Of a stretch of 64,000 nucleotides of DNA, positions 9,596 to 53,035 are shown in pieces. Within the stretch, counting starts at the first letter, position 1. Each line of letters begins with the position of its first letter. The notes beneath the pieces were generated by a model that was not told where the DNA came from, ran no database searches, and was given only the letters and a program-made list of their open reading frames with translations. The translations under genes were made by a program, and so were the position numbers. Origin of the DNA: a virus; the IMG/VR virus record IMGVR_UViG_3300037237_000386, positions 1 to 64,000 of that record; one strand, written 5' to 3'.

Positions 9596-9624
9596 TTGAC
9601 AACCTTGCGGGTCGGATTCATACT
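9596..9624 (+). promoter_or_regulatory. Sigma-70-like promoter for a leaderless gene
   Basis: TTGACA, 17-base spacer, CATACT. The ATG begins 7 bases after the -10, so the transcript should start at or next to the start codon. A near-identical promoter lies at 35958. Confidence 0.8.
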
Positions 9625-15585: not shown

Positions 15586-15759
15586 GTGGGAGCGAGGCTC
15601 AAGGTCGTCAAGGGGAGGGAGACGAAGCAAGAGCGCGAGGACAGGGAGGCAGACGAAGCGGTGGAGGAGGTTGTTCGCGTCTGCCTCCGGATGAGTGGGC
15701 GAGGACGGCTGGAGTACCTCGCGTCGCTCATTGATTCCGTCGCAAGGCGGGCGCGATGA
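15586..15759 (+). CDS. Small hypothetical protein
   Basis: 57 residues from GTG 15586, two bases after the previous stop, too short for the usual filter. Helical and charged (KQEREDREADEAVEEVV). The next gene starts inside its stop. Function unknown. Confidence 0.55.
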   Translation: MGARLKVVKGRETKQEREDREADEAVEEVVRVCLRMSGRGRLEYLASLIDSVARRAR

Positions 15760-16040
15760 GCGACGACATGCCGTGCACGGCGTGCGACGGACACGGGCGC
15801 GTGCCCCTGAGCCAGGAGTTGCAGGACAGCCTCGACAAGGTGCGCGAGGGCGGTGTGGAGACGGCGGAGGACCTCTGGAAGACGATGGCGAAGGGGTTGT
15901 GGAAGACGGCGGCCGTCAATCGTCTGGAGAGGCTCCGCACGCTCGGGTACTTGGAGCGGACGAAGCGAGGCCGCACGTGGCATTACTCCGCGAGGACCGC
16001 GGCGCAGGTGGTCGAGGTGAAGAAGCGACAGCGGCGCTGA
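15756..16040 (+). CDS. Small protein with zinc motif and winged-helix-like C-terminus
   Basis: 94 residues, ATGA overlap. The N-terminus carries CTACDGHG, half of a DnaJ-type CxxCxGxG zinc repeat. Residues 45-85 (KTAAVNRLERLRTLGYLERTKRGRTWHYS) look like a winged helix of the type that separates strands or reads DNA. It directly precedes the DNA polymerase, so a regulatory or replication role is plausible. Confidence 0.6.
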   Translation: MSDDMPCTACDGHGRVPLSQELQDSLDKVREGGVETAEDLWKTMAKGLWKTAAVNRLERLRTLGYLERTKRGRTWHYSARTAAQVVEVKKRQRR

Positions 16041-16063
16041 CGCGCGCCAAGACGGGCGTCATC

Positions 16064-19000
16064 ATGGGAGACGTGTACGGCGCCGGGTACGTGAACGGGT
16101 ACGTGGATGGGAGCAGGGTGACCCTGCTCTCGCGCGGGGCAGGCGGCAGGCTGCAGCGCAGCCAGGTGCCCGCGGAGCACGTCGCCTACTTCCGCAAGGA
16201 CGAGCTGCCGCCGGAGCTGGAGAAGCTCCTCCTGCGGAACTGCGCCGGCGCGAAGCTCGAGGACGGCGGGTGGATGCGGTTCGCGCTGCCCGAGCACGTG
16301 CGCCGCAACGTGTGCATCGAGGACGTGTGGAAGAACGCCAGCGGCGAGAAGCGGGACAACCCGTTCGCGGCGGTGCCTAGCTACGAGGGAGACGTCGACC
16401 CGGTGCGGCGGTTCCTGACGGACAGCAAGGCGACCGTCGCTCGGCCGAGGCGCGCGTACACGGACATCGAGACCGACTCCAGGGTCCCCTTCAACCGGAA
16501 GCACGAGATGCGCGTGCTCAGTTGGGGGCTGCAGGCGCACGACACGGGCGAGATGCGCGTGGGCGTCCTCCAAGCCGACACGGACGGTGCGGAGGCGGAG
16601 CTGCTCGGGCAGTGGTGGGAGGCGATGGAGGAGTTCGACCAGGTGGCCGCCTGGAACGGGGGCGAGGCGGACCCCGACGGCGACGGGTTCGACTTCCCGG
16701 TCATCATGGCCCGCTCGGAGCACGTGAAGCTCCGTGGCGTGGACCCGAGGAGGTTCCTCTACGTCGACCAGCTGGAGGCGTTCCGGCGGATGAATCAGCA
16801 CGCGTCGGAGAGCGGCGAGGAGAAGCAGAGCATGAAGCTCGACTCCATCGCGCACATCCTCCTCGGCGCGGGCAAGGACGACTTCGACGCGAGCCACACG
16901 TGGGAGGCTTGGGCGGCGGGAGGACCCGAGCGCAGGCGCCTCGTGAAGTACATGATGCGGGACGTCGACTTGCTGCGGCAGATCGAGCTGAAGACGCAGT
17001 TCCTCGATCTCTTCTCGACGCTCTGCGGCGTCTTCCACATGTTCGCGGACACGCGAGGGCTGAACCCGACGCAGCAGGTGGACGCGTACATGCTCGGGTT
17101 CCTCCGCGAGCGCGGACTGCACCGCCCGACGAAGAAGCGCATCGAGAAGGGCGAGAAGTTCAAGGGCGGGTACGTGATGAACCCGCCGCGCTTCGTCGGC
17201 GTGGAGAAGGACATTCACGTGGCGGACTTCGCGGGGATGTACCCGAGCATCATCCGCTCGTGGAACATGAGCCACGAGACGAAGGCGGCGAACGCACCGG
17301 TGAACGGGCCCGTGCCTGAGGGGTTCTGCCGGTGCCCCAAGACGGGCACGAGCTTCACGACGGCGGAGGAGGGGCTGCTCAGCATCGCGGTCGGCAACCT
17401 CATCGAGAACCGGAAGAAGTACCGGAAGCTGAAGGCGAGCCTGGCGCCGGGGTCGCCGGAGTTCGCGGACGCGGACCGCCTGAGCGACTCGTACAAGGTG
17501 GCCACGAACATCTTCTTCGGGGTCGTGGGCAGCCCGTTCAGTCCCTACTTCGACAAGCAGATTGCGGAAGGCATCACGCAGAACGGCGTGTGGCTCATCG
17601 AGCACACCATCGCCGCGGCGGAGAAGCGCGGGTGGTTCGTCGGCTACGGCGACAGCGTCACGGGGGATCGAACTGTCGTCTTACGCTCGCCTGCAGGAAG
17701 GACCGTCATCAAGCCGGTGGAGGAGGTGTTCGAGGACGGGTGTGACGTGGTGCGCGCACGCGACAAGGAGTTCGTCTTCATGCAGGGGTGGGAGGCACTC
17801 GCCCGAGACGCGAAGGGTCGCGAGGGCTGGTATCCGCTGACGCAGGTTGTCCGTCATCGCACGTGCAAGGAGCTCGTGCGCATCTCGACGAAGCGCGGCG
17901 AAACGGAGGTGACGAGTGACCATTCGATCATGTCCGGCGGACGCGAGGTGAAGCCCGACGAGTTCCTGGCGGCAGGAGCGCGGTTCGAGAAGGTCGACGC
18001 CCAGGAAGGCAGGAAGCTAGAGCGTGTTGACCTGTTCGAGTACCTGACTGACTTCAAGGTTTCGTACGCGTCCCGAGGACGTGTGAGGGTGAAGGAGTTC
18101 TTCGTTACGGCGGACGGCGAGTGGGTCGGGTTGAGAATGCGAGGTTCGACGAAGCAGTACATCCGGCGGTTTTATGACGCGGGATCGGAGCGGTTCAGGG
18201 CGCTGCTGCGCGTGATGGGGGCGTATCTGGCCGAGGGGAGCGCGAGTATCCGCAAGCTGACGGCGACTCGTGACATGTTCTCTATCGGGCAGTCCGACCC
18301 GGACTGGCTCGCCCCGTTGCAGAAGGACTTGGCTTCGTTCACGCAGGGGGTTGAGACGGACCTGATGCCGACTGGGGGAGGGATGTGGGCAATTCGTTCG
18401 GGAGCCGCGCTGCTGCCGTACGCGTTCGCTGCACTCTGCGGATTCAGGTCGAGTGGCAAGCGGTTTCCGGACTTCGTGTACGACCTGGCGGATGACGACT
18501 TTGCGGAGATGAAACGTCCCATGGTGGAGGGGGATGGACACGTCGTGGAGCCGGACGTGTGGAGGAGCAGGGCGCTGCGGCGAAGCCCCGGGCACGAGTT
18601 CTCGTACACAACGAAGTCGCAGGTGCTGATGGCGGGGTTCTCGTATGCGCTGGACCAGCGTGGGTTCGAGCACGCGATCCACTACAGACCGGAGAAGCGG
18701 TGTTGGACGTTGAGGACAAGGCCGACGGGGACAGAGCGACCGAACAGGCAGCGGGTGCTCGTCTCGCGGCGGAAGGCTGAGGACGAGTGGGTGTACGACT
18801 TGACGGTGGAGGGGGCACACACGTTTGTCGATGGCATCGGTAGGGTGCTTCTGCACAACACCGACAGCATCTACGTGAAGGGACCGACGAAGGCGGAGTT
18901 CGAGGCGTTCACGAAGTGGTGCAACGAGGAGCTCTACCCGCCGCTGATGAAGCAGGTGGGGTGTCCGCGCAACGTCGTGAACTTGGAGTACGAGAAGGAG

Positions 19001-19945
19001 TTCGAGCGCATCGTCTTCGTCACGGCGAAGCGCTATGCCGGCTGGTACAAGCACTTCAAGGGCAACGCGCCGAAGGCGGACGCGAAGCCCGAGGTGAAGG
19101 GCCTGGAGTACAAGCGGGGCGACAGCACGAAGCTCGCGCGCGACCTGCAGGTGCGCGTCGTGGAGATGCTGATGAAGGGCGAGGAGGGGATGGAGGCGTT
19201 CCATGAGCTGCTCTCGCACGCGCGACAGCACGTGCTCGAGGACGCGCTGCCCCTGGCCGAGGTGGTGATGCGCAAGGAGCTCAGCAAGGCGCTGCGCGAG
19301 TACGCGGTGAAGAAGAAGAAGGACGGCGAGGACGCGGCGCAGTCGCCGCACGTGGTCGTGGCCAAGATGCTGAAGGCCCGCGGCCAGGACGTCAGTGCCG
19401 GCACACGCGTCGGCTACGTGGTGCTCGACGACGAGGCGGAGGACCCGGCGAAGCGGTTCATGCCGGAGGAGGACTACAAGGGCGAGTGCGACCGGCACTA
19501 CGTGTGGCAGTCGCTCGTCTACCCGCCGACGATGCGCCTCCTCGAAGCAGCGTTCCCCGATGCGGACGCGGTGAAGCATTGGGAGGCTTGGGCCAAGAGC
19601 CGCCCGAGCAAGAAGGCCCTGAAGGCGCTGGAGCAGGGGCAGGGAGCTCTCTTCAAGTCGGAGGAAACCCGGGTTTCCCCCACGGGTCTGCGGACGACAG
19701 CGCCTCCCACGCTGGCGAGCACTCAGCCTTACGAGGCGGTCGTCGACCAGGACAAGTTGGAGGCGGCCGGGGGCCTGGAGGTGCTGCTCGCGGTCGCGCA
19801 GCGGCATCCGGGCAAGCGGATGCTCAAGCTGCGGCTGCGTCTCGACACGGGGGCGGAGGCGGCGATGGACACGGCGGTGCGCGTGGATGGTGGCGGGGCG
19901 CTGGCGCGGAAGCTCGCCCTCTTCCGGCACGTTGCTGCGTCGTGA
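16064..19945 (+). CDS. polB: Family B DNA polymerase interrupted by an intein
   Basis: 1293 residues as translated, about 891 without the intein. The 3'-5' exonuclease domain shows DIE (Asp134, Glu136) in Exo I, an N-x-x...FDFP Exo II region and YMMRDVD (Exo III). Polymerase motif A is DFAGMYPSI, motif B is KVATNIFFGVVG, and motif C is YGD/TDS, split by the intein between Asp and Thr. The two catalytic aspartates therefore come together only after splicing. Motif A has FAGMYPS instead of the usual SLYPS. It would be the replicative polymerase of the phage. The palindrome copy 4 lies inside the 3' linker region of the gene. Confidence 0.95.
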   Translation: MGDVYGAGYVNGYVDGSRVTLLSRGAGGRLQRSQVPAEHVAYFRKDELPPELEKLLLRNCAGAKLEDGGWMRFALPEHVRRNVCIEDVWKNASGEKRDNPFAAVPSYEGDVDPVRRFLTDSKATVARPRRAYTDIETDSRVPFNRKHEMRVLSWGLQAHDTGEMRVGVLQADTDGAEAELLGQWWEAMEEFDQVAAWNGGEADPDGDGFDFPVIMARSEHVKLRGVDPRRFLYVDQLEAFRRMNQHASESGEEKQSMKLDSIAHILLGAGKDDFDASHTWEAWAAGGPERRRLVKYMMRDVDLLRQIELKTQFLDLFSTLCGVFHMFADTRGLNPTQQVDAYMLGFLRERGLHRPTKKRIEKGEKFKGGYVMNPPRFVGVEKDIHVADFAGMYPSIIRSWNMSHETKAANAPVNGPVPEGFCRCPKTGTSFTTAEEGLLSIAVGNLIENRKKYRKLKASLAPGSPEFADADRLSDSYKVATNIFFGVVGSPFSPYFDKQIAEGITQNGVWLIEHTIAAAEKRGWFVGYGDSVTGDRTVVLRSPAGRTVIKPVEEVFEDGCDVVRARDKEFVFMQGWEALARDAKGREGWYPLTQVVRHRTCKELVRISTKRGETEVTSDHSIMSGGREVKPDEFLAAGARFEKVDAQEGRKLERVDLFEYLTDFKVSYASRGRVRVKEFFVTADGEWVGLRMRGSTKQYIRRFYDAGSERFRALLRVMGAYLAEGSASIRKLTATRDMFSIGQSDPDWLAPLQKDLASFTQGVETDLMPTGGGMWAIRSGAALLPYAFAALCGFRSSGKRFPDFVYDLADDDFAEMKRPMVEGDGHVVEPDVWRSRALRRSPGHEFSYTTKSQVLMAGFSYALDQRGFEHAIHYRPEKRCWTLRTRPTGTERPNRQRVLVSRRKAEDEWVYDLTVEGAHTFVDGIGRVLLHNTDSIYVKGPTKAEFEAFTKWCNEELYPPLMKQVGCPRNVVNLEYEKEFERIVFVTAKRYAGWYKHFKGNAPKADAKPEVKGLEYKRGDSTKLARDLQVRVVEMLMKGEEGMEAFHELLSHARQHVLEDALPLAEVVMRKELSKALREYAVKKKKDGEDAAQSPHVVVAKMLKARGQDVSAGTRVGYVVLDDEAEDPAKRFMPEEDYKGECDRHYVWQSLVYPPTMRLLEAAFPDADAVKHWEAWAKSRPSKKALKALEQGQGALFKSEETRVSPTGLRTTAPPTLASTQPYEAVVDQDKLEAAGGLEVLLAVAQRHPGKRMLKLRLRLDTGAEAAMDTAVRVDGGGALARKLALFRHVAAS
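17654..18859 (+). other. Intein in polymerase motif C, with LAGLIDADG-type endonuclease
   Basis: 402 residues, from Ser1 (SVTGDRTVVL) to a terminal HN, with Thr as the first downstream extein residue. This is the classical polymerase insertion point YGD/TDS used by archaeal and phage inteins. The splicing blocks are visible (SVTGDRT; VYDLTVEGAHTFV...VLLHN). The centre holds a LAGLIDADG-like helix (VMGAYLAEGSAS) and a second VEGDGHV, consistent with a DOD endonuclease that may still work. Confidence 0.93.
19663..19678 (+). repeat. Dispersed palindrome copy 4, inside polB
   Basis: Perfect 16-bp copy inside the coding sequence, encoding EETRVSP in the linker before the last domain of the polymerase. 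It is the only copy well inside a long gene. Confidence 0.9.
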
Positions 19946-28591: not shown

Positions 28592-29287
28592 GTGAGGAAG
28601 AAGGCGAAGAGGGCCCCGGCGCAGAAGCCGGCGGGCAAGGCGGCGCCGAGTGTTGTCGGCAAGGTGGAGATGGCGGCGCTCGACCTCGTGCGCCCGAACA
28701 CCTGGAACCCGAACCGGCTGACGCCCTTCGAGAAGCGAGCGCTCAAGCACGGGCTCGAGCACGACACGTGGCTGCCGAGCCACGCGCTCACGATCTGGAG
28801 GACCGACGAGAAGGGCAAGAAGAAGATGCTCGTCATCGACGGCGAGCACCGCTGGACCGCCGCCCGGGAGCTCGGCCTGAAGGAGGGACCGATGGTGTTC
28901 CTCGACGGGCTGACCGAGGCCGAGGCGAAGGCCTGGACCGTGAAGCTCGACGCGAAGCGGGGCAAGTTCGACGAGGACAAGATGGGCCCCCTCCTCCGGA
29001 GCCTGGAGCCGACGATGGACGTGGAGACGCGAGCGCTCGACCTCGGCATCGACGAGGACCGCCTCGTGCGGTACCTCGACGACGAGCCGGACAAGGCCGT
29101 GGTCGGCGAGCTGCCGAGCGGGCAGCGGGCGAGCGTGCGGCAGGTGCAGCTCTTCTTCCCGCAGGCGCGCTACGACGAGTTCCAGAAGATGGTGCGGGAG
29201 ATGGCGGGGAGCCTGAAGACGAAGAACGTGACCGACACGGTGCTGGAGGTGGTCCGCCGTGCGGGCGCAGCTGCAGCTCCGAAGTAG
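28592..29287 (+). CDS. ParB/Srx-like domain protein, paralogue A
   Basis: 231 residues, GTG start with GGAGG 8 bases upstream. The ParB/sulfiredoxin-fold core is recognised by NPNRLTPFEK and VIDGEHRWTAARELG (Asp83, Glu85, His86, Arg87). Many phage proteins with this domain act as nucleases or nucleotide-dependent enzymes rather than in partition. It shares long blocks with the gene at 30178 (SHALTIWRTDEKG, KLDAKRGKFD). The pair flanks a TET/JBP-type dioxygenase, so a role in base modification or its regulation is inferred. Confidence 0.8.
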   Translation: MRKKAKRAPAQKPAGKAAPSVVGKVEMAALDLVRPNTWNPNRLTPFEKRALKHGLEHDTWLPSHALTIWRTDEKGKKKMLVIDGEHRWTAARELGLKEGPMVFLDGLTEAEAKAWTVKLDAKRGKFDEDKMGPLLRSLEPTMDVETRALDLGIDEDRLVRYLDDEPDKAVVGELPSGQRASVRQVQLFFPQARYDEFQKMVREMAGSLKTKNVTDTVLEVVRRAGAAAAPK

Positions 29288-29912: not shown

Positions 29913-30178
29913 TGGCGGTCATGCGCCGGGGTCACTACCGCGGGGCAGAGCTCGTGTTCCCGAAGTACGGCGTGGGTGCGGACCTGCAGCACGGCGACGT
30001 CATCTTCTTCGATCCGCACGAGGTGCACGGCAACCTGGCGTTCCGTGAGGGCATCGGCGTGGAGGCGGAAGATTGGGCTCGGATCTCGATGGTCATGTAC
30101 TTCAGGACGCGCATGGTCGATTGCCTGGAGCCGAGGGCGGAGTTGGAGCGCGCCAAGGGCGTGCGAGGAGAGGTGTGA
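29912..30178 (+). CDS. TET/JBP-type dioxygenase, C-terminal part
   Basis: 88 residues from ATG 29912, which shares a base with the stop of the first part (TGATG), so reinitiation is possible. It carries the distal family motifs: GHYRGAELVFPKYGV, HGDVIFFDPHEVHGN with the second iron-binding His, and MVMYFRTRM. The first iron-binding His and Asp (HTD) are encoded upstream in this same frame, at about 29872-29884, before any start codon. A full enzyme therefore needs frameshifting rather than reinitiation. Confidence 0.7.
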   Translation: MAVMRRGHYRGAELVFPKYGVGADLQHGDVIFFDPHEVHGNLAFREGIGVEAEDWARISMVMYFRTRMVDCLEPRAELERAKGVRGEV

Positions 30179-30825
30179 TGGGCAAGCGGAAGAAGCCGAC
30201 GGTGAGTGCGGTGGTCAACTCGCCGCTGACGGGCGTGAAGCCGAATCCGTGGAATCCGAACCGACTGACGGCGTTCGAGAAGGAGAGCCTGAAGTTCGGC
30301 ATCCGTGAGGACGGGTGGCTCGCCAGCCACGCGCTCACCATCTGGCGCACGGACGAGAAGGGCAGAGAGAGGAACCTGGTCATCGACGGCGAGCACCGGC
30401 TGGTGGCGGCGCTGGAGCTCGGGATGACGGTCGGCCCGATGTGCTTCATCGACGGGATGAAGGAGAGCGACGCGAAGAAGCTCACCATCAAGCTCGACGC
30501 GAAGCGCGGCAAGTTCGACCAGGAGCTCCTGCAGACGCTCGTCAGGAGCATCGCGGATGGCCTCGACCTGGAGACGAGGAGCCTGGCCCTCGGCATCGGT
30601 GAGGACGTGCTCGGGGAGATGCTCGACACGACGCCGGATACACCCGTCGTCGGGGAGCTCGGCAGTGGCAGGACGAGCGACACGAAGGTGGTCACGTTGT
30701 TCTTCACGCCCGAGGGACATGACGAGTTCCTGAAGGTGGCCAAGGAGCTGGCGGTGCGCTTCAAGCAGCAGACGACGAGCGACACGGTGTTCGAGGCGGT
30801 GCGAAGGGCGAACGCCGCAAGATAG
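30178..30825 (+). CDS. ParB/Srx-like domain protein, paralogue B
   Basis: 215 residues, sharing a base with the dioxygenase stop. Same architecture as the protein at 28592: NPNRLTAFEK, SHALTIWRTDEKG, VIDGEHRLVAALELG (Asp70, Glu72, His73, Arg74), KLDAKRGKFDQE. The C-termini also align (VVTLFF...DEF), so the two come from a duplication with the dioxygenase placed between. Both probably share a job in DNA modification, with different partners or targets. Alternatively they are DNA-binding regulators. Confidence 0.8.
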   Translation: MGKRKKPTVSAVVNSPLTGVKPNPWNPNRLTAFEKESLKFGIREDGWLASHALTIWRTDEKGRERNLVIDGEHRLVAALELGMTVGPMCFIDGMKESDAKKLTIKLDAKRGKFDQELLQTLVRSIADGLDLETRSLALGIGEDVLGEMLDTTPDTPVVGELGSGRTSDTKVVTLFFTPEGHDEFLKVAKELAVRFKQQTTSDTVFEAVRRANAAR

Positions 30826-35581: not shown

Positions 35582-35961
35582 AGACGAAGCGCACGACGGA
35601 GCACGCGACGGGCGACGCGGTGAATCACCCGGACCACTACAACGCGCACCCGAGTGGGGTGGAGTGCATCCGGGTCGTCGAACATATGAGCTTCAACGTC
35701 GGCAACGCGGTGAAGTACGCGTGGCGCGCGGACCACAAGGGCACGAGCCCGGTGGAGGACCTGAAGAAGGCGGCTTGGTACATCGCGCGCGAGATCGAGC
35801 GGCTGACGAGTCCGAGCACGATCCCGGGAGGACCGCACGCACTGGCGACGCAGGTGGTGGAGTCGTTCGTGCGGCGCTACGGGAGGCTCCCGCCGCAGGT
35901 TCGCGTGGGGGAAACCCGGGTTTCCCCCGTCCGCCGGCGGAAGGCCAAGAAACATAGTTGA
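35578..35961 (+). CDS. DUF3310 family protein (SaV-like)
   Basis: 127 residues, GTG start overlapping the previous stop. VNHPDHYNAHPSGVECIRVV, FNVGNAVKYAWRADHKG and EDLKKAAWYIAREIER are the DUF3310 hallmarks. Such proteins are widespread in phages and often annotated as nucleotide kinases without firm proof. The C-terminal GETRVSPVRRRKAKKHS tail is encoded across palindrome copy 7 and continues into the next promoter, so it may be added by the element. Confidence 0.88.
   Translation: MKTKRTTEHATGDAVNHPDHYNAHPSGVECIRVVEHMSFNVGNAVKYAWRADHKGTSPVEDLKKAAWYIAREIERLTSPSTIPGGPHALATQVVESFVRRYGRLPPQVRVGETRVSPVRRRKAKKHS
35907..35928 (+). repeat. Dispersed palindrome copy 7
   Basis: Perfect 22-bp form, one of the two longest. 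Inside the 3' end of the DUF3310 gene; its centre is 63.5 bases before the -10 of the next promoter. Confidence 0.93.
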
Positions 35962-35986
35962 CAAGTATCGCGGTTGGATTCATACT
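35958..35986 (+). promoter_or_regulatory. Sigma-70-like promoter for a leaderless gene
   Basis: TTGACA, 17-base spacer, CATACT; ATG starts 7 bases later. The spacer ends GGATT like that at 9596, and its ACAAGTATCGCGGT matches the promoter at 13617. Confidence 0.8.
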
Positions 35987-48725: not shown

Positions 48726-48917
48726 ATGGCTGAAGAAAAGTACCCGTGTCCGTGTGGCCGTGCACCGTTCGGGCAACCCATCATGGTGCCGTGTCGGTGT
48801 GGCGCGAACTGGTGTGAGGCTTGTGCTCACACGAAGTGCCACGTCGATCCACCCGTCGCCGGTACGACGATCCCGAACGGCGGTGACTGGCGAGGGGCAG
48901 CCGGAGGCCCGTTTTGA
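48726..48917 (+). CDS. Small protein with multiple Cys pairs
   Basis: 63 residues, GGAGG 5 bases before ATG 48726. CPCG...CRCG...WCEAC forms a compact metal-binding array. It begins the accessory block with visibly lower GC. Stop codon is the first base triplet of a conserved intergenic repeat. Confidence 0.6.
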   Translation: MAEEKYPCPCGRAPFGQPIMVPCRCGANWCEACAHTKCHVDPPVAGTTIPNGGDWRGAAGGPF

Positions 48918-48936
48918 CACTCGGCATTGTGCGCGC
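48915..48936 (+). repeat. Cassette-boundary repeat, copy C (diverged)
   Basis: TGACACTCGGCATTGTGCGC..., starting at the stop codon of the preceding gene. Matches copies A and B at 18 of 22 positions and carries the same position relative to the next ribosome site. Confidence 0.6.
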
Positions 48937-48953: not shown

Positions 48954-49832
48954 ATGAGCAAGCGGACGACCGAGTTTCTACCACCCGTCACCTACCAAGG
49001 CGGCAAGGGCCGCCTAGCAGCGCAGATCGTCGAGACGATGGGGCTCCCCATCGCCGGTCGATTCTATGACCTCTGTTGCGGCTCGGGCGCCATCTCAGTT
49101 GCCGCAGTCGAGCGGGGCCAAGACCCGAGCCGCATCACAATGGTCGACCTCTCGCCATGGGGTCTCTTCTGGAAGTCGATTGGCGACGGGTCCTTTGACG
49201 TTTCTCAATTCGAGTTGCATGCAGCGCGAGTGCCACGCGACCCCTGGAAGATAAAAGAATACGTAGAAGCCCTTTCGCGAGAGCGCGTGGGCGACGATCG
49301 CGTCTATGTGTTCCTGATCTTGCAGGCTGCACGGTTTGGCGGCGCGGCGATCTGGATTGACGGAGAGAAGTGGTGTGGCGGCGGCTTCCGTCAATACTGG
49401 ACATCGGCGTCGTCGAAAAAGGAACCGACACGCGGTCGAGAGAACCCCAATTCAACACCGCCCATGTGCCCCATGCCCGACGTCATCGTAGCGCGGTGCC
49501 GATCGCTCGCTCAGAGGATGCGAGGGGTACGAGCCATCTGCGACGACCTTGGCAGACCGGGATTCGACCTGCGTCTAGTCGTTGGGGACGGAGATGTTGC
49601 TTACATCGATCCCCCCTACGCAGGGACGTCGAAATATGGCTACGAAGTTGACGCCTCAAAACTGGCCTCGTCGCTCGGCGTGCCGTGTTGGGTTTCTGAG
49701 GGACGCGGACTTACACCTGGCGCCATCTGTCTCTCGCGTGGACGCATGAAGGGCGGCATGTCCGGCACCCGAACACGCGCTCCGAACGAAGAATGGATCA
49801 GTCCGTTCGGAACCGAAAAAGTGCGGACATGA
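48954..49832 (+). CDS. D12-class DNA adenine methyltransferase
   Basis: 292 residues with GGGAGAG upstream. YQGGKGRLA and FYDLCCGSGAIS (motif I), and YIDPPY (219-222, motif IV), are D12/Dam-type N6-adenine methyltransferase signatures. Base composition is clearly less GC-rich than neighbours, and codon use differs (more A/T-ending codons), pointing to recent acquisition. Flanked by repeats C and A as a self-contained cassette. Probable role is evading host restriction; the target sequence is unknown. Confidence 0.85.
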   Translation: MSKRTTEFLPPVTYQGGKGRLAAQIVETMGLPIAGRFYDLCCGSGAISVAAVERGQDPSRITMVDLSPWGLFWKSIGDGSFDVSQFELHAARVPRDPWKIKEYVEALSRERVGDDRVYVFLILQAARFGGAAIWIDGEKWCGGGFRQYWTSASSKKEPTRGRENPNSTPPMCPMPDVIVARCRSLAQRMRGVRAICDDLGRPGFDLRLVVGDGDVAYIDPPYAGTSKYGYEVDASKLASSLGVPCWVSEGRGLTPGAICLSRGRMKGGMSGTRTRAPNEEWISPFGTEKVRT

Positions 49833-49851
49833 CACTCGCGCTTTTGCGCGC
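49830..49851 (+). repeat. Cassette-boundary repeat, copy A
   Basis: TGACACTCGCGCTTTTGCGC... Identical over 22 bases with copy B. It starts at the methyltransferase stop codon and contains a CGCGC-TTTT-GCGCG hairpin. The preceding 9 bases, encoding the final VRT residues, are also shared. Confidence 0.85.
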
Positions 49852-50096: not shown

Positions 50097-50602
50097 GCAG
50101 GGGGTCGACGCCCATCTCGGGCTCTCCCGAAGAAGTGGCCGAGCTGCGCGTGGTGGCCAAGGCGCCACCTCAGATGCTGGAGCAGAAGGCCGAGCTGGAG
50201 GCCGCGTATGCCCGCATCAAGGAGCTGATGGCTGAGGCCGAGAAGGAAGAGGTGCGCTGGCAGGAGCGCATCGCGGCGGTAATCACGTCCGCCGGCCTGA
50301 CGCCAATCGATGCGAGCGGAAACGAGTCGGGCGACCCGCTCGATTGGACCGCGGATCAAGTAGCGGCAGCACTAGGGGAGTTGAATGCAGCAGCCGACGA
50401 ATCGCGCGCCCACGACGGGGCGCTTTCCGCGTTCTCCCCCGAACAGCGCGCCGAACTGGAGAAGCCGATTGCTCCCGCCCCCGCACTGGATCGGTGGGAC
50501 GGTACGTTCCTGAACTGCTGTGGCCTTCGGCAGCTCGCGGCGACATGGTGTCGACTCTGCCGCCTCGACAGGGACGGAAAGCCACACGGGAGGGGGGCGT
50601 AA
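50093..50602 (+). CDS. Hypothetical coiled-coil protein with C-terminal Cys pair
   Basis: 169 residues, GTG start by GTGA overlap. Coiled coil at residues 15-65, acidic middle, and CCGLRQLAATWCRLC near the end. Function unknown. Confidence 0.6.
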   Translation: MSRGSTPISGSPEEVAELRVVAKAPPQMLEQKAELEAAYARIKELMAEAEKEEVRWQERIAAVITSAGLTPIDASGNESGDPLDWTADQVAAALGELNAAADESRAHDGALSAFSPEQRAELEKPIAPAPALDRWDGTFLNCCGLRQLAATWCRLCRLDRDGKPHGRGA

Positions 50603-50958
50603 TGGGGCAGTACAGGGAGCGACACGGACGAGATGGTGAGAAGATTCAGCTCGTCCTCACGTCGGATGAGCAGAAGCGCATCTGGGCGAATGCGGAGCGA
50701 ACGGCTGAGCGCGTGCGGCAGTGGCCTGAGTGGAAACGCGGCGGGCATCAAGGGCGATTTGTGCTCGCCCTCACGTGCTGCGGCCGAGACGACGGCGAAG
50801 CCTCATTCGATACGTGGGATGATGCGGACGAGTTCCGTGAGCACTACCTGTCCGGTCCCGGCGTCGGTCTCCCGACAGAGACACGCTTCGGCCGTGGAGG
50901 TCATTCGAGGAGCGCGATCATCGTCGTTTGCGCTGTACGTACTGAACGCCCGTCTTAG
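50602..50958 (+). CDS. Hypothetical protein
   Basis: 118 residues, GGAGGGG upstream and start sharing a base with the previous TAA stop. Helical first half (TSDEQKRIWANAERTAERVR), then beta-like. The 3' end contains the first copy of the TTGCGCTGTACGTAC repeat. Function unknown. Confidence 0.6.
   Translation: MGQYRERHGRDGEKIQLVLTSDEQKRIWANAERTAERVRQWPEWKRGGHQGRFVLALTCCGRDDGEASFDTWDDADEFREHYLSGPGVGLPTETRFGRGGHSRSAIIVVCAVRTERPS
50928..50942 (+). repeat. Operator-like direct repeat, copy 1
   Basis: TTGCGCTGTACGTAC, repeated exactly at 50975-50989. Contains the self-complementary GTACGTAC. A possible binding site for the nearby RHH repressor. Confidence 0.7.
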
Positions 50959-50974
50959 AATCGACACCAGGCCC

Positions 50975-51003
50975 TTGCGCTGTACGTACGGAGCACGTAT
51001 AGT
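50975..51003 (+). promoter_or_regulatory. Promoter for structured RNA, with operator-like repeat
   Basis: TTGCGC, 17-base spacer, TATAGT, the best -10 in the window. The -35 and spacer include the second copy of TTGCGCTGTACGTAC. Transcription would begin near 51010. Confidence 0.65.
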
Positions 51004-51009
51004 CTAGTC

Positions 51010-51306
51010 ATCAGACAGCGACGACGCCCGCTGCGGGGATGGGCTCCCGGTAAGAAGGGCTGAGAAGAAGGTGCGTACCTACAAGGAACGCGCGGGACTG
51101 CGGTGGCTAAGAGCCGAGCGAGCGCGGGAAGGTGAAAGTAGGGCTTGCACCGAAAGCCCCCTAATGGCCGCGAGGCAGGACGAAGGGGTGAGTAGGCGGC
51201 CGTCCGAAATGCCCTAACCTGTACGTCTCCGTAACCGCTCGGCGCTTCAAGCCGCCTCGACGTTCGGCTCAGGAGAGATGACGCACGCACCTTCTTCTCA
51301 GCCCTT
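51010..51306 (+). ncRNA. Candidate structured RNA / long leader closed by a 22-bp helix
   Basis: About 300 bases without an ORF, directly after a good promoter. Bases 51055-51076 and 51285-51306 are perfectly complementary over 22 bp. Inside are hairpins at 51016-51033, 51105-51115 and 51141-51159, an 8-bp pairing of 51113-51120 with 51236-51243, and a possible pseudoknot: 51166-51171 with 51196-51201 and 51078-independent 51178-51181 with 51202-51205. The closing helix ends 14 bases before ATG 51320. It may be a regulatory leader or an independent ncRNA; no known class recognised. Confidence 0.6.
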
Positions 51307-51319
51307 GAGAGGACGAGAG

Positions 51320-51598
51320 ATGGACTTCACGGCAATCGACCTGTTCGACGGAGAGTTTTCGTTCCTGCCGTTCGAGGCGGGCGTTCGCTACGGCGAGGTC
51401 CCGCTCTACCCGACCAGCGAGGACTTCCACAACTTCGTCAGCACGAAGTGTCACGAGCAGCGTCCTGCGGCACACTGGCACCTGGAGGCCGTCCGCTGGC
51501 GCCGTCAACACCCTGGCAAGCCGCTGAACGATGGCCTCAAGGAAATCGCCATCGCGACCGCAGCGGCCATCCACAAGACGCTCGACGAGGACCGATGA
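51320..51598 (+). CDS. Hypothetical protein downstream of structured RNA
   Basis: 92 residues from ATG 51320, with GAGAGGACGAGAG directly upstream. ATG 51278 is an in-frame alternative that would place the 3' arm of the RNA helix in the coding region. Aromatic and acidic N-terminus (FTAIDLFDGEFSFLPF). No family recognised; possibly controlled by the upstream RNA. Confidence 0.6.
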   Translation: MDFTAIDLFDGEFSFLPFEAGVRYGEVPLYPTSEDFHNFVSTKCHEQRPAAHWHLEAVRWRRQHPGKPLNDGLKEIAIATAAAIHKTLDEDR

Positions 51599-51768
51599 CG
51601 CGCTCCGGCACCCCGACGACGCCCAACGGCCGGCGCAAGCGTCCGATGGTGACGCTGACGCTCTCGCCGGAGGCACTTGCCCGGCTGGACGACCTCGCAG
51701 CCGAGCGCGGGCAGACGCGCAGCGGTGCCGTCGAGGCCCTCATCCGCAACGCGCGCGTGCGGACGTGA
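51595..51768 (+). CDS. Ribbon-helix-helix (Arc/CopG-type) regulator
   Basis: 57 residues, ATGA overlap, too short for many filters. MVTLTLSPEALARLDDLAAERGQTRSGAVEALIRNA is a clear RHH DNA-binding fold. Such dimers bind short repeated operators, so the TTGCGCTGTACGTAC repeats two genes upstream are candidate targets (inference). Ends VRT and stop, as the methyltransferase does, just before repeat B. Confidence 0.85.
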   Translation: MTRSGTPTTPNGRRKRPMVTLTLSPEALARLDDLAAERGQTRSGAVEALIRNARVRT

Positions 51769-51787
51769 CACTCGCGCTTTTGCGCGC
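51766..51787 (+). repeat. Cassette-boundary repeat, copy B
   Basis: Identical 22 bases to copy A (49830-49851), starting at the RHH gene stop codon, about 15 bases before the next ribosome site. Confidence 0.85.
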
Positions 51788-52409: not shown

Positions 52410-52453
52410 TGCGCGCTGCACCCTACGGATGTGCACGACGAGCGCGGGTGCTG

Positions 52454-52459
52454 CATCAT
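52454..52459 (+). promoter_or_regulatory. -10-like CATCAT, 7 bases before a start codon
   Basis: Ends 7 bases before ATG 52467. The same hexamer stands 7 bases before ATG 57949. Confidence 0.4.
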
Positions 52460-52466
52460 GGGAGGC

Positions 52467-53018
52467 ATGCCATGCAAGCACGGACTGAACCCGCAAGCGT
52501 GCCTCCCCTGCTTCCACGAGAAGCGAAACGCGGCCCCCACGTCGAAGCCGGCGGAGCGTGCGCCGGTGCCCAAGAACAACGTCATCGACGCGGTGAAGCA
52601 GGCTCGCCTCGACGCGCAGCAGGCGGAGGGAGCCGTCAACATTCGTCTGAGGGCCGCTGGGCTACCCAATCTGCCGCCGGGCACGGACGTGCTCGAGCCG
52701 ACGGTGCACGTGGGTCCGACGCGTGTGGGCTACGAGAACGACGGCACGCCCATCGCGCAGCCCAAGCAGGAGGACCCGGAGCTCGGCAGGCCCAAGGTGA
52801 GGGGCAAGATGCCGGTGCCGGTGCTGCACGGGGGAGCGGTCGCGGGTCAGGCGCAGAAGACGCTGGAGCCATTTAGCTACGCGAGCGCGAAGCCTTGGCA
52901 CACGAAGACTGTCACTGTCGCGGGCGTGCAGCAGACCATCGCGGTGCCCCCGCGACACGGGAGCATCATCGACAGTCTGCCGAGGCACCCGAACCCGGAG
53001 CCAGCGCTCCGGCGCTGA
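52467..53018 (+). CDS. Hypothetical protein with N-terminal Cys motif
   Basis: 183 residues from ATG 52467, chosen by the -10 spacing; an upstream ATG at 52431 is in frame. CKHGLNPQACLPC at the N-terminus may bind metal, followed by Pro/Val-rich beta-type sequence. Ends immediately before palindrome copy 10. Function unknown. Confidence 0.6.
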   Translation: MPCKHGLNPQACLPCFHEKRNAAPTSKPAERAPVPKNNVIDAVKQARLDAQQAEGAVNIRLRAAGLPNLPPGTDVLEPTVHVGPTRVGYENDGTPIAQPKQEDPELGRPKVRGKMPVPVLHGGAVAGQAQKTLEPFSYASAKPWHTKTVTVAGVQQTIAVPPRHGSIIDSLPRHPNPEPALRR

Positions 53019-53019
53019 C

Positions 53020-53035
53020 GGAAACCCGGGTTTCC
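53020..53035 (+). repeat. Dispersed palindrome copy 10
   Basis: Perfect 16-bp core right after the TGAC stop context. A CATGAC element begins 15.5 bases from its centre. Confidence 0.9.

Follow-up and report, generated by a model that had tools for sequence, protein, structure and literature searches.

The segment at 51055-51306 is closed by a perfect 22-bp inverted repeat whose length is far above chance expectation. The two arms, at 51055-51076 (AAGGGCTGAGAAGAAGGTGCGT) and 51285-51306, lie on the + strand, as do the promoter-like site, operator-like copy 1, the leader and the two genes that follow it; they are exact reverse complements (22/22) separated by a 208-nt spacer. The survey on which this comparison rests took in every perfect inverted repeat of 12 bp or longer whose arms both fall inside 600 nt, across the window, which is the whole 64,000-nt stretch of DNA analyzed and comprises positions 1-64,000 of a 76,918-bp, 68% GC source record. 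The next-longest perfect repeat in the window, with arms up to 600 nt apart, is 13 bp, and the longest in each of 20 Markov-shuffled windows ranged from 13 to 15 bp. The mismatch-free complementarity of the two arms given in the preliminary description is borne out. From the sequence context, we hold with about even confidence that the segment is the ~309-nt 5′ leader of an autoregulated small phage operon, and that the repeat is its long closing helix.

Each 22-nt arm occurs once in the 76.9-kb record. For comparison, a handful of perfect repeats of at least 16 bp with spacers above 40 nt turn up in 863 kb of sequence from 80 phage loci that bear a terminase; some of these are intergenic, and their sequences are all unrelated. 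Long spaced perfect repeats are thus uncommon without being unique.

The predicted leader spans 51011-51319. Its assignment as a 5′ leader, and not as a separate RNA, follows from three features: a promoter-like site ahead of it; the lack of any terminator-like site in a scan of 50600-51700, and so before the first gene; and a Shine-Dalgarno-like sequence immediately after the 3′ arm. The promoter-like site, TTGCGC-17-TATAGT at 50975-51004, precedes the 5′ arm by ~50 nt. It had been described as strong, which fits the good −10 hexamer (TATAGT) and the 17-nt spacing, but the −35 hexamer (TTGCGC) is poor, matching TTGACA at 3 of 6 positions, and a strict scan did not call the site. The Shine-Dalgarno-like GAGAGGA occupies 51307-51313 and directly adjoins the 3′ arm, which ends at 51306. 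The helix does therefore end beside a ribosome site, although position 51320, where that site had been placed, is the start codon.

A 309-nt leader is unusual beside three other promoters of this phage, which stand almost directly before start codons. These three are near-identical, of the form TTGACAAcCTTGCGGGTcGGATTCATACT, and are found at 9596-9624, 35958-35986 and, outside the window, 71249-71277. With the start codon ~7-8 nt past the −10, messages from these promoters would be near-leaderless.

The first gene after the leader (51320-51598) encodes a 92-aa protein with no Pfam or PHROG match, and its GC content by codon position is 0.66/0.42/0.83. The second gene (51595-51768) overlaps the stop of the first and encodes a 57-aa ribbon-helix-helix (CopG-type) repressor-like protein, which matches Pfam RHH_1 (E 5e-7) and phrog_4738, transcriptional repressor (E 3e-7). 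Upstream of both, an 18-bp operator-like repeat is present in two copies placed 47 bp apart. Copy 1 (50928-50945, TTGCGCTGTACGTACTGA) is 17/18 identical to copy 2 (50975-50992), which carries the promoter −35 and spacer. The repeat includes the palindromic core GTACGTAC, its exact 15-mer core is absent elsewhere in the window, and an imperfect palindrome, TGCGCTGTACGTACGGAGCA at 50976-50995, is overlapped by the promoter −35 and spacer. Given a ribbon-helix-helix gene within the operon and these repeat copies, an autorepressor acting at a duplicated operator-like site is the natural inference. The ribbon-helix-helix protein, as the product of the second gene, probably controls the promoter through the operator-like repeats, and the operon from 51320 to about 53018 would be transcribed from the promoter at 50975-51004.

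A possible end of this transcription unit is marked by the perfect palindrome GGAAACCCGGGTTTCC at 53020-53035 (no strand assigned), which is just past the stop of the gene at 52431-53018 and is the nearest copy downstream of the leader. The palindrome is present in 16 copies in the 76.9-kb record: at 1915, 9560, 13580, 19663, 27767, 34511, 35910, 43988, 47614, 53020, 54021, 55372 and 58824 in the window; and at 66251, 71222 and 75289 outside it. Copies often come directly after stop codons (TGAGGGAAACCCGGGTTTCCC), three copies are then followed by a TTGACA-type promoter, and copies within several genes give rise to ETRVS peptides. An 18-bp form of the palindrome is found in no other IMG/VR contig, and its matches in MAGs are few and scattered. 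The palindrome may be a phage-specific terminator or protein-binding site. A different, 31-nt repeat, GTGCGGACrTGACACTCGCGCTTTTGCGCGC, is found where three genes in the vicinity of the segment end (48906-48936, 49821-49851 and 51757-51787). The copies at 49821 and 51757 are 97% identical, the copy at 48906 is 68% identical, and the repeat holds a small hairpin, CGCGC-TTTT-GCGCG.

If the segment is transcribed as a leader, the action of the helix may involve: a 5′ arm that waits 208 nt in the nascent RNA for its partner; closure of the helix, over a 208-nt loop, just before the ribosome site; and a shortened distance from the 5′ end of the leader to the ribosome-binding site. Closure would also occupy the pyrimidine-rich part of the 3′ arm, which could otherwise pair locally with the Shine-Dalgarno region in an alternative 8-bp hairpin. 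From this arrangement, we infer transcription of the leader, its pairing in the cell, its processing and any effect on translation.

A switch between the helix and the ribosome-site hairpin is weakly supported. Opening 51307-51316 is computed to cost 3.3 kcal/mol when the helix is present, rising to 4.9 kcal/mol when the 5′ arm is blocked, while the mean unpaired probability of the same positions moves the opposite way, from 0.26 to 0.37; the effect of ~1.6 kcal/mol is thus both small and inconsistent. That the leader represents a new class of phage RNA is quite doubtful. In such a class, a long perfect helix between distant arms would bracket a loop and, by pairing or release, control the ribosome site that follows, with the 3′ arm serving as an anti-ribosome-site sequence and a ribosome-site-like 5′ arm removing it.

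The 22-bp duplex could also be a cut site for a host double-strand-specific RNase of the RNase III type, which would part the leader from the message. An uninterrupted duplex of 22 bp is long enough for RNase III. The enzyme would have to come from the host, as the phage record contains no RNase III gene. The N leader of phage lambda is an early leader processed by RNase III, and its helix is a local hairpin. The leader described here resembles it as a phage mRNA leader that is long and, here by prediction, partly double-stranded near the first gene's ribosome site, and in its position downstream of a repressor-controlled promoter, here a candidate one. It differs in that its arms have 208 nt between them and match without a mismatch, and the two sequences are unrelated. 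RNase III cuts transcripts of phages lambda, T7 and T3 (PMC5371410). Were the helix to form in the transcript, it would be a compact case of pairing between distant parts of an RNA, from a phage operon that seemingly controls itself at the promoter.

The bracketing geometry of the helix would also fit a different product, a trans-acting stand-alone ncRNA of about 210-250 nt that would be freed by cutting the helix, as rRNAs are. Pre-rRNA supplies the precedent: the leader-trailer helices of pre-16S and pre-23S rRNA are likewise long (some 25-40 bp), form between distant arms and bracket the RNA that RNase III releases by cutting them (PMC10250234). Those helices, however, have covariation behind them and enclose an RNA that is functional and conserved, whereas the part bracketed here has no recognizable function or structure. 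The 208-nt interior (51077-51284) has a minimum free energy of −79.6 kcal/mol, compared with a mean of −81.6 kcal/mol for dinucleotide shuffles (z = +0.41), and its ensemble diversity is equaled or undercut in 26 of 200 shuffles. Helices of at least 7 bp number three, where chance gives 1.45 on average and 6 at most. The interior fold is what random sequence of the same composition gives. The whole of 51055-51306 does reach a folding z of −4.5, but this is because of the 22-bp arms.

The inner hairpins, 8-bp pairing and pseudoknot of the preliminary description are to be read against these shuffles. The bases are literally present as described, both for the 8-bp pairing (51113-51120/51236-51243) and for the crossing 6-bp and 4-bp pairings (51166-51171/51196-51201 and 51178-51181/51202-51205); their significance is not confirmed, as a crossing arrangement of this pseudoknot type appears in 69 of 200 shuffles. 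In GC-rich DNA, hairpins and even a pseudoknot arise for free, and the sequence within a closing helix, however striking the helix, is not thereby a structured RNA. Of the two readings offered earlier, a large regulatory leader or a novel ncRNA, the first is the better supported, by the promoter with its operator-like repeats, the lack of a terminator-like site and the arm at the ribosome site; the elaborate ncRNA is not, given an interior at chance level.

Searches for relatives of the segment also count against a stand-alone RNA. Rfam (cmscan) returned nothing at the gathering score in the window and nothing to E 5 in 50900-51420, and DNA homologues of the segment were absent from phages, plasmids, IMG/VR and GTDB genomes. 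Together with a ribosome site that adjoins the segment and no terminator-like site after it, this makes the stand-alone ncRNA unlikely. ARAGORN found no tRNA or tmRNA, and inspection by eye along with Rfam lent no support to a group I intron, RNase P or other known ribozymes. Three 33-36-nt plasmid matches on the 5′ arm (E 0.4) were taken as chance.

The segment had also been described as fitting no ORF. A GTG frame of 48 codons is in fact open at 51071-51217, but it is probably non-coding: its third-position GC is 0.65, and the bias of the clear genes of this phage (~0.9) is absent. A leader peptide was rejected on this basis, despite the open frame.

In retron ncRNAs (msr-msd), an RNA of ~200 nt lying ahead of a gene is closed by a pair of arms, and the long repeats here likewise enclose ~200 nt in front of a gene, in the manner of a1/a2 closing repeats. 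A retron-type RNA is nonetheless very unlikely, close to negligible, as the 76.9-kb record, which is possibly incomplete, contains no reverse transcriptase (RVT_1, PF00078), in a search where control genomes gave matches. The Rfam search likewise gave no match.

The arms pair as well in DNA as in RNA. The reverse complement of 51055-51306 folds with a z of −5.0, and since the opposite strand gives a helix of equal stability, sequence alone cannot favor an RNA over a DNA role. The repeat might therefore be a protein-recognized, DNA-level element that lies in the leader by accident, either as the ends of a MITE-like 252-bp insert or as a recombination or replication site. We consider this possible, but on the unlikely side. 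Perfect 22-bp ends spanning 252 bp are of typical size for terminal inverted repeats, and MITEs are alike in arm size and perfection. The interior is featureless, without structure or a coding signal of its own, and with the stretch excised, what remains would be a normal promoter followed by a short leader and a ribosome site. Comparable, unrelated long repeats also lie between genes in other phages. One example (L105:6552-6709), in a phage with a distantly related terminase, is an inverted repeat whose perfectly matched 26-bp arms flank 106 nt; it has a stop codon on one side and a TTGACA promoter on the other, and its sequence is unrelated.

In contrast to a MITE, the repeat has no target-site duplication beyond one base, as the adjacent G is all that the flanks GGTAAG and GAGAGG have in common. 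There is no second copy in the record, the 22-mer is absent from IMG/VR and from the GTDB species genomes searched, and phages and plasmids hold no similar segment. A search of the record for recombinases of the serine and tyrosine types found none, and an invertible segment was rejected for lack of such an enzyme.

The phage that would carry this operon leader looks like a virulent tailed phage. Its record encodes a family B DNA polymerase, a DnaB-like helicase, a UvsX-like recombinase and a large terminase. Identity of the terminase to the others found reaches about 28-32% at most, with no synteny to those relatives, and that of the polymerase and helicase is about 25-31%. By these comparisons, this bacterial virus has no close relative in the collections used. 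IMG/VR was searched with two proteins encoded near the segment (the 92-aa protein and a methyltransferase), the terminase and the DNA polymerase; apart from distant terminases, this gave just a 23-residue match in locus L004, which was judged to be chance. The other proteins of the 42.9-60.6 kb region had no match in the distant-terminase loci.

Two further observations concern genes elsewhere in the window. The family B DNA polymerase gene (15695-19945) is interrupted by an intein-like insert, from GYGDSVTGDRT to VLLHNTDSIYV, which matches the Pfam intein splicing domain at E 9e-4, under the curated cut-off. The neighboring genes at 28592-29287, which matches ParB-like PHROGs, and at 30073-30825, which has no Pfam match, have a 291-nt stretch in common that is 74% identical.
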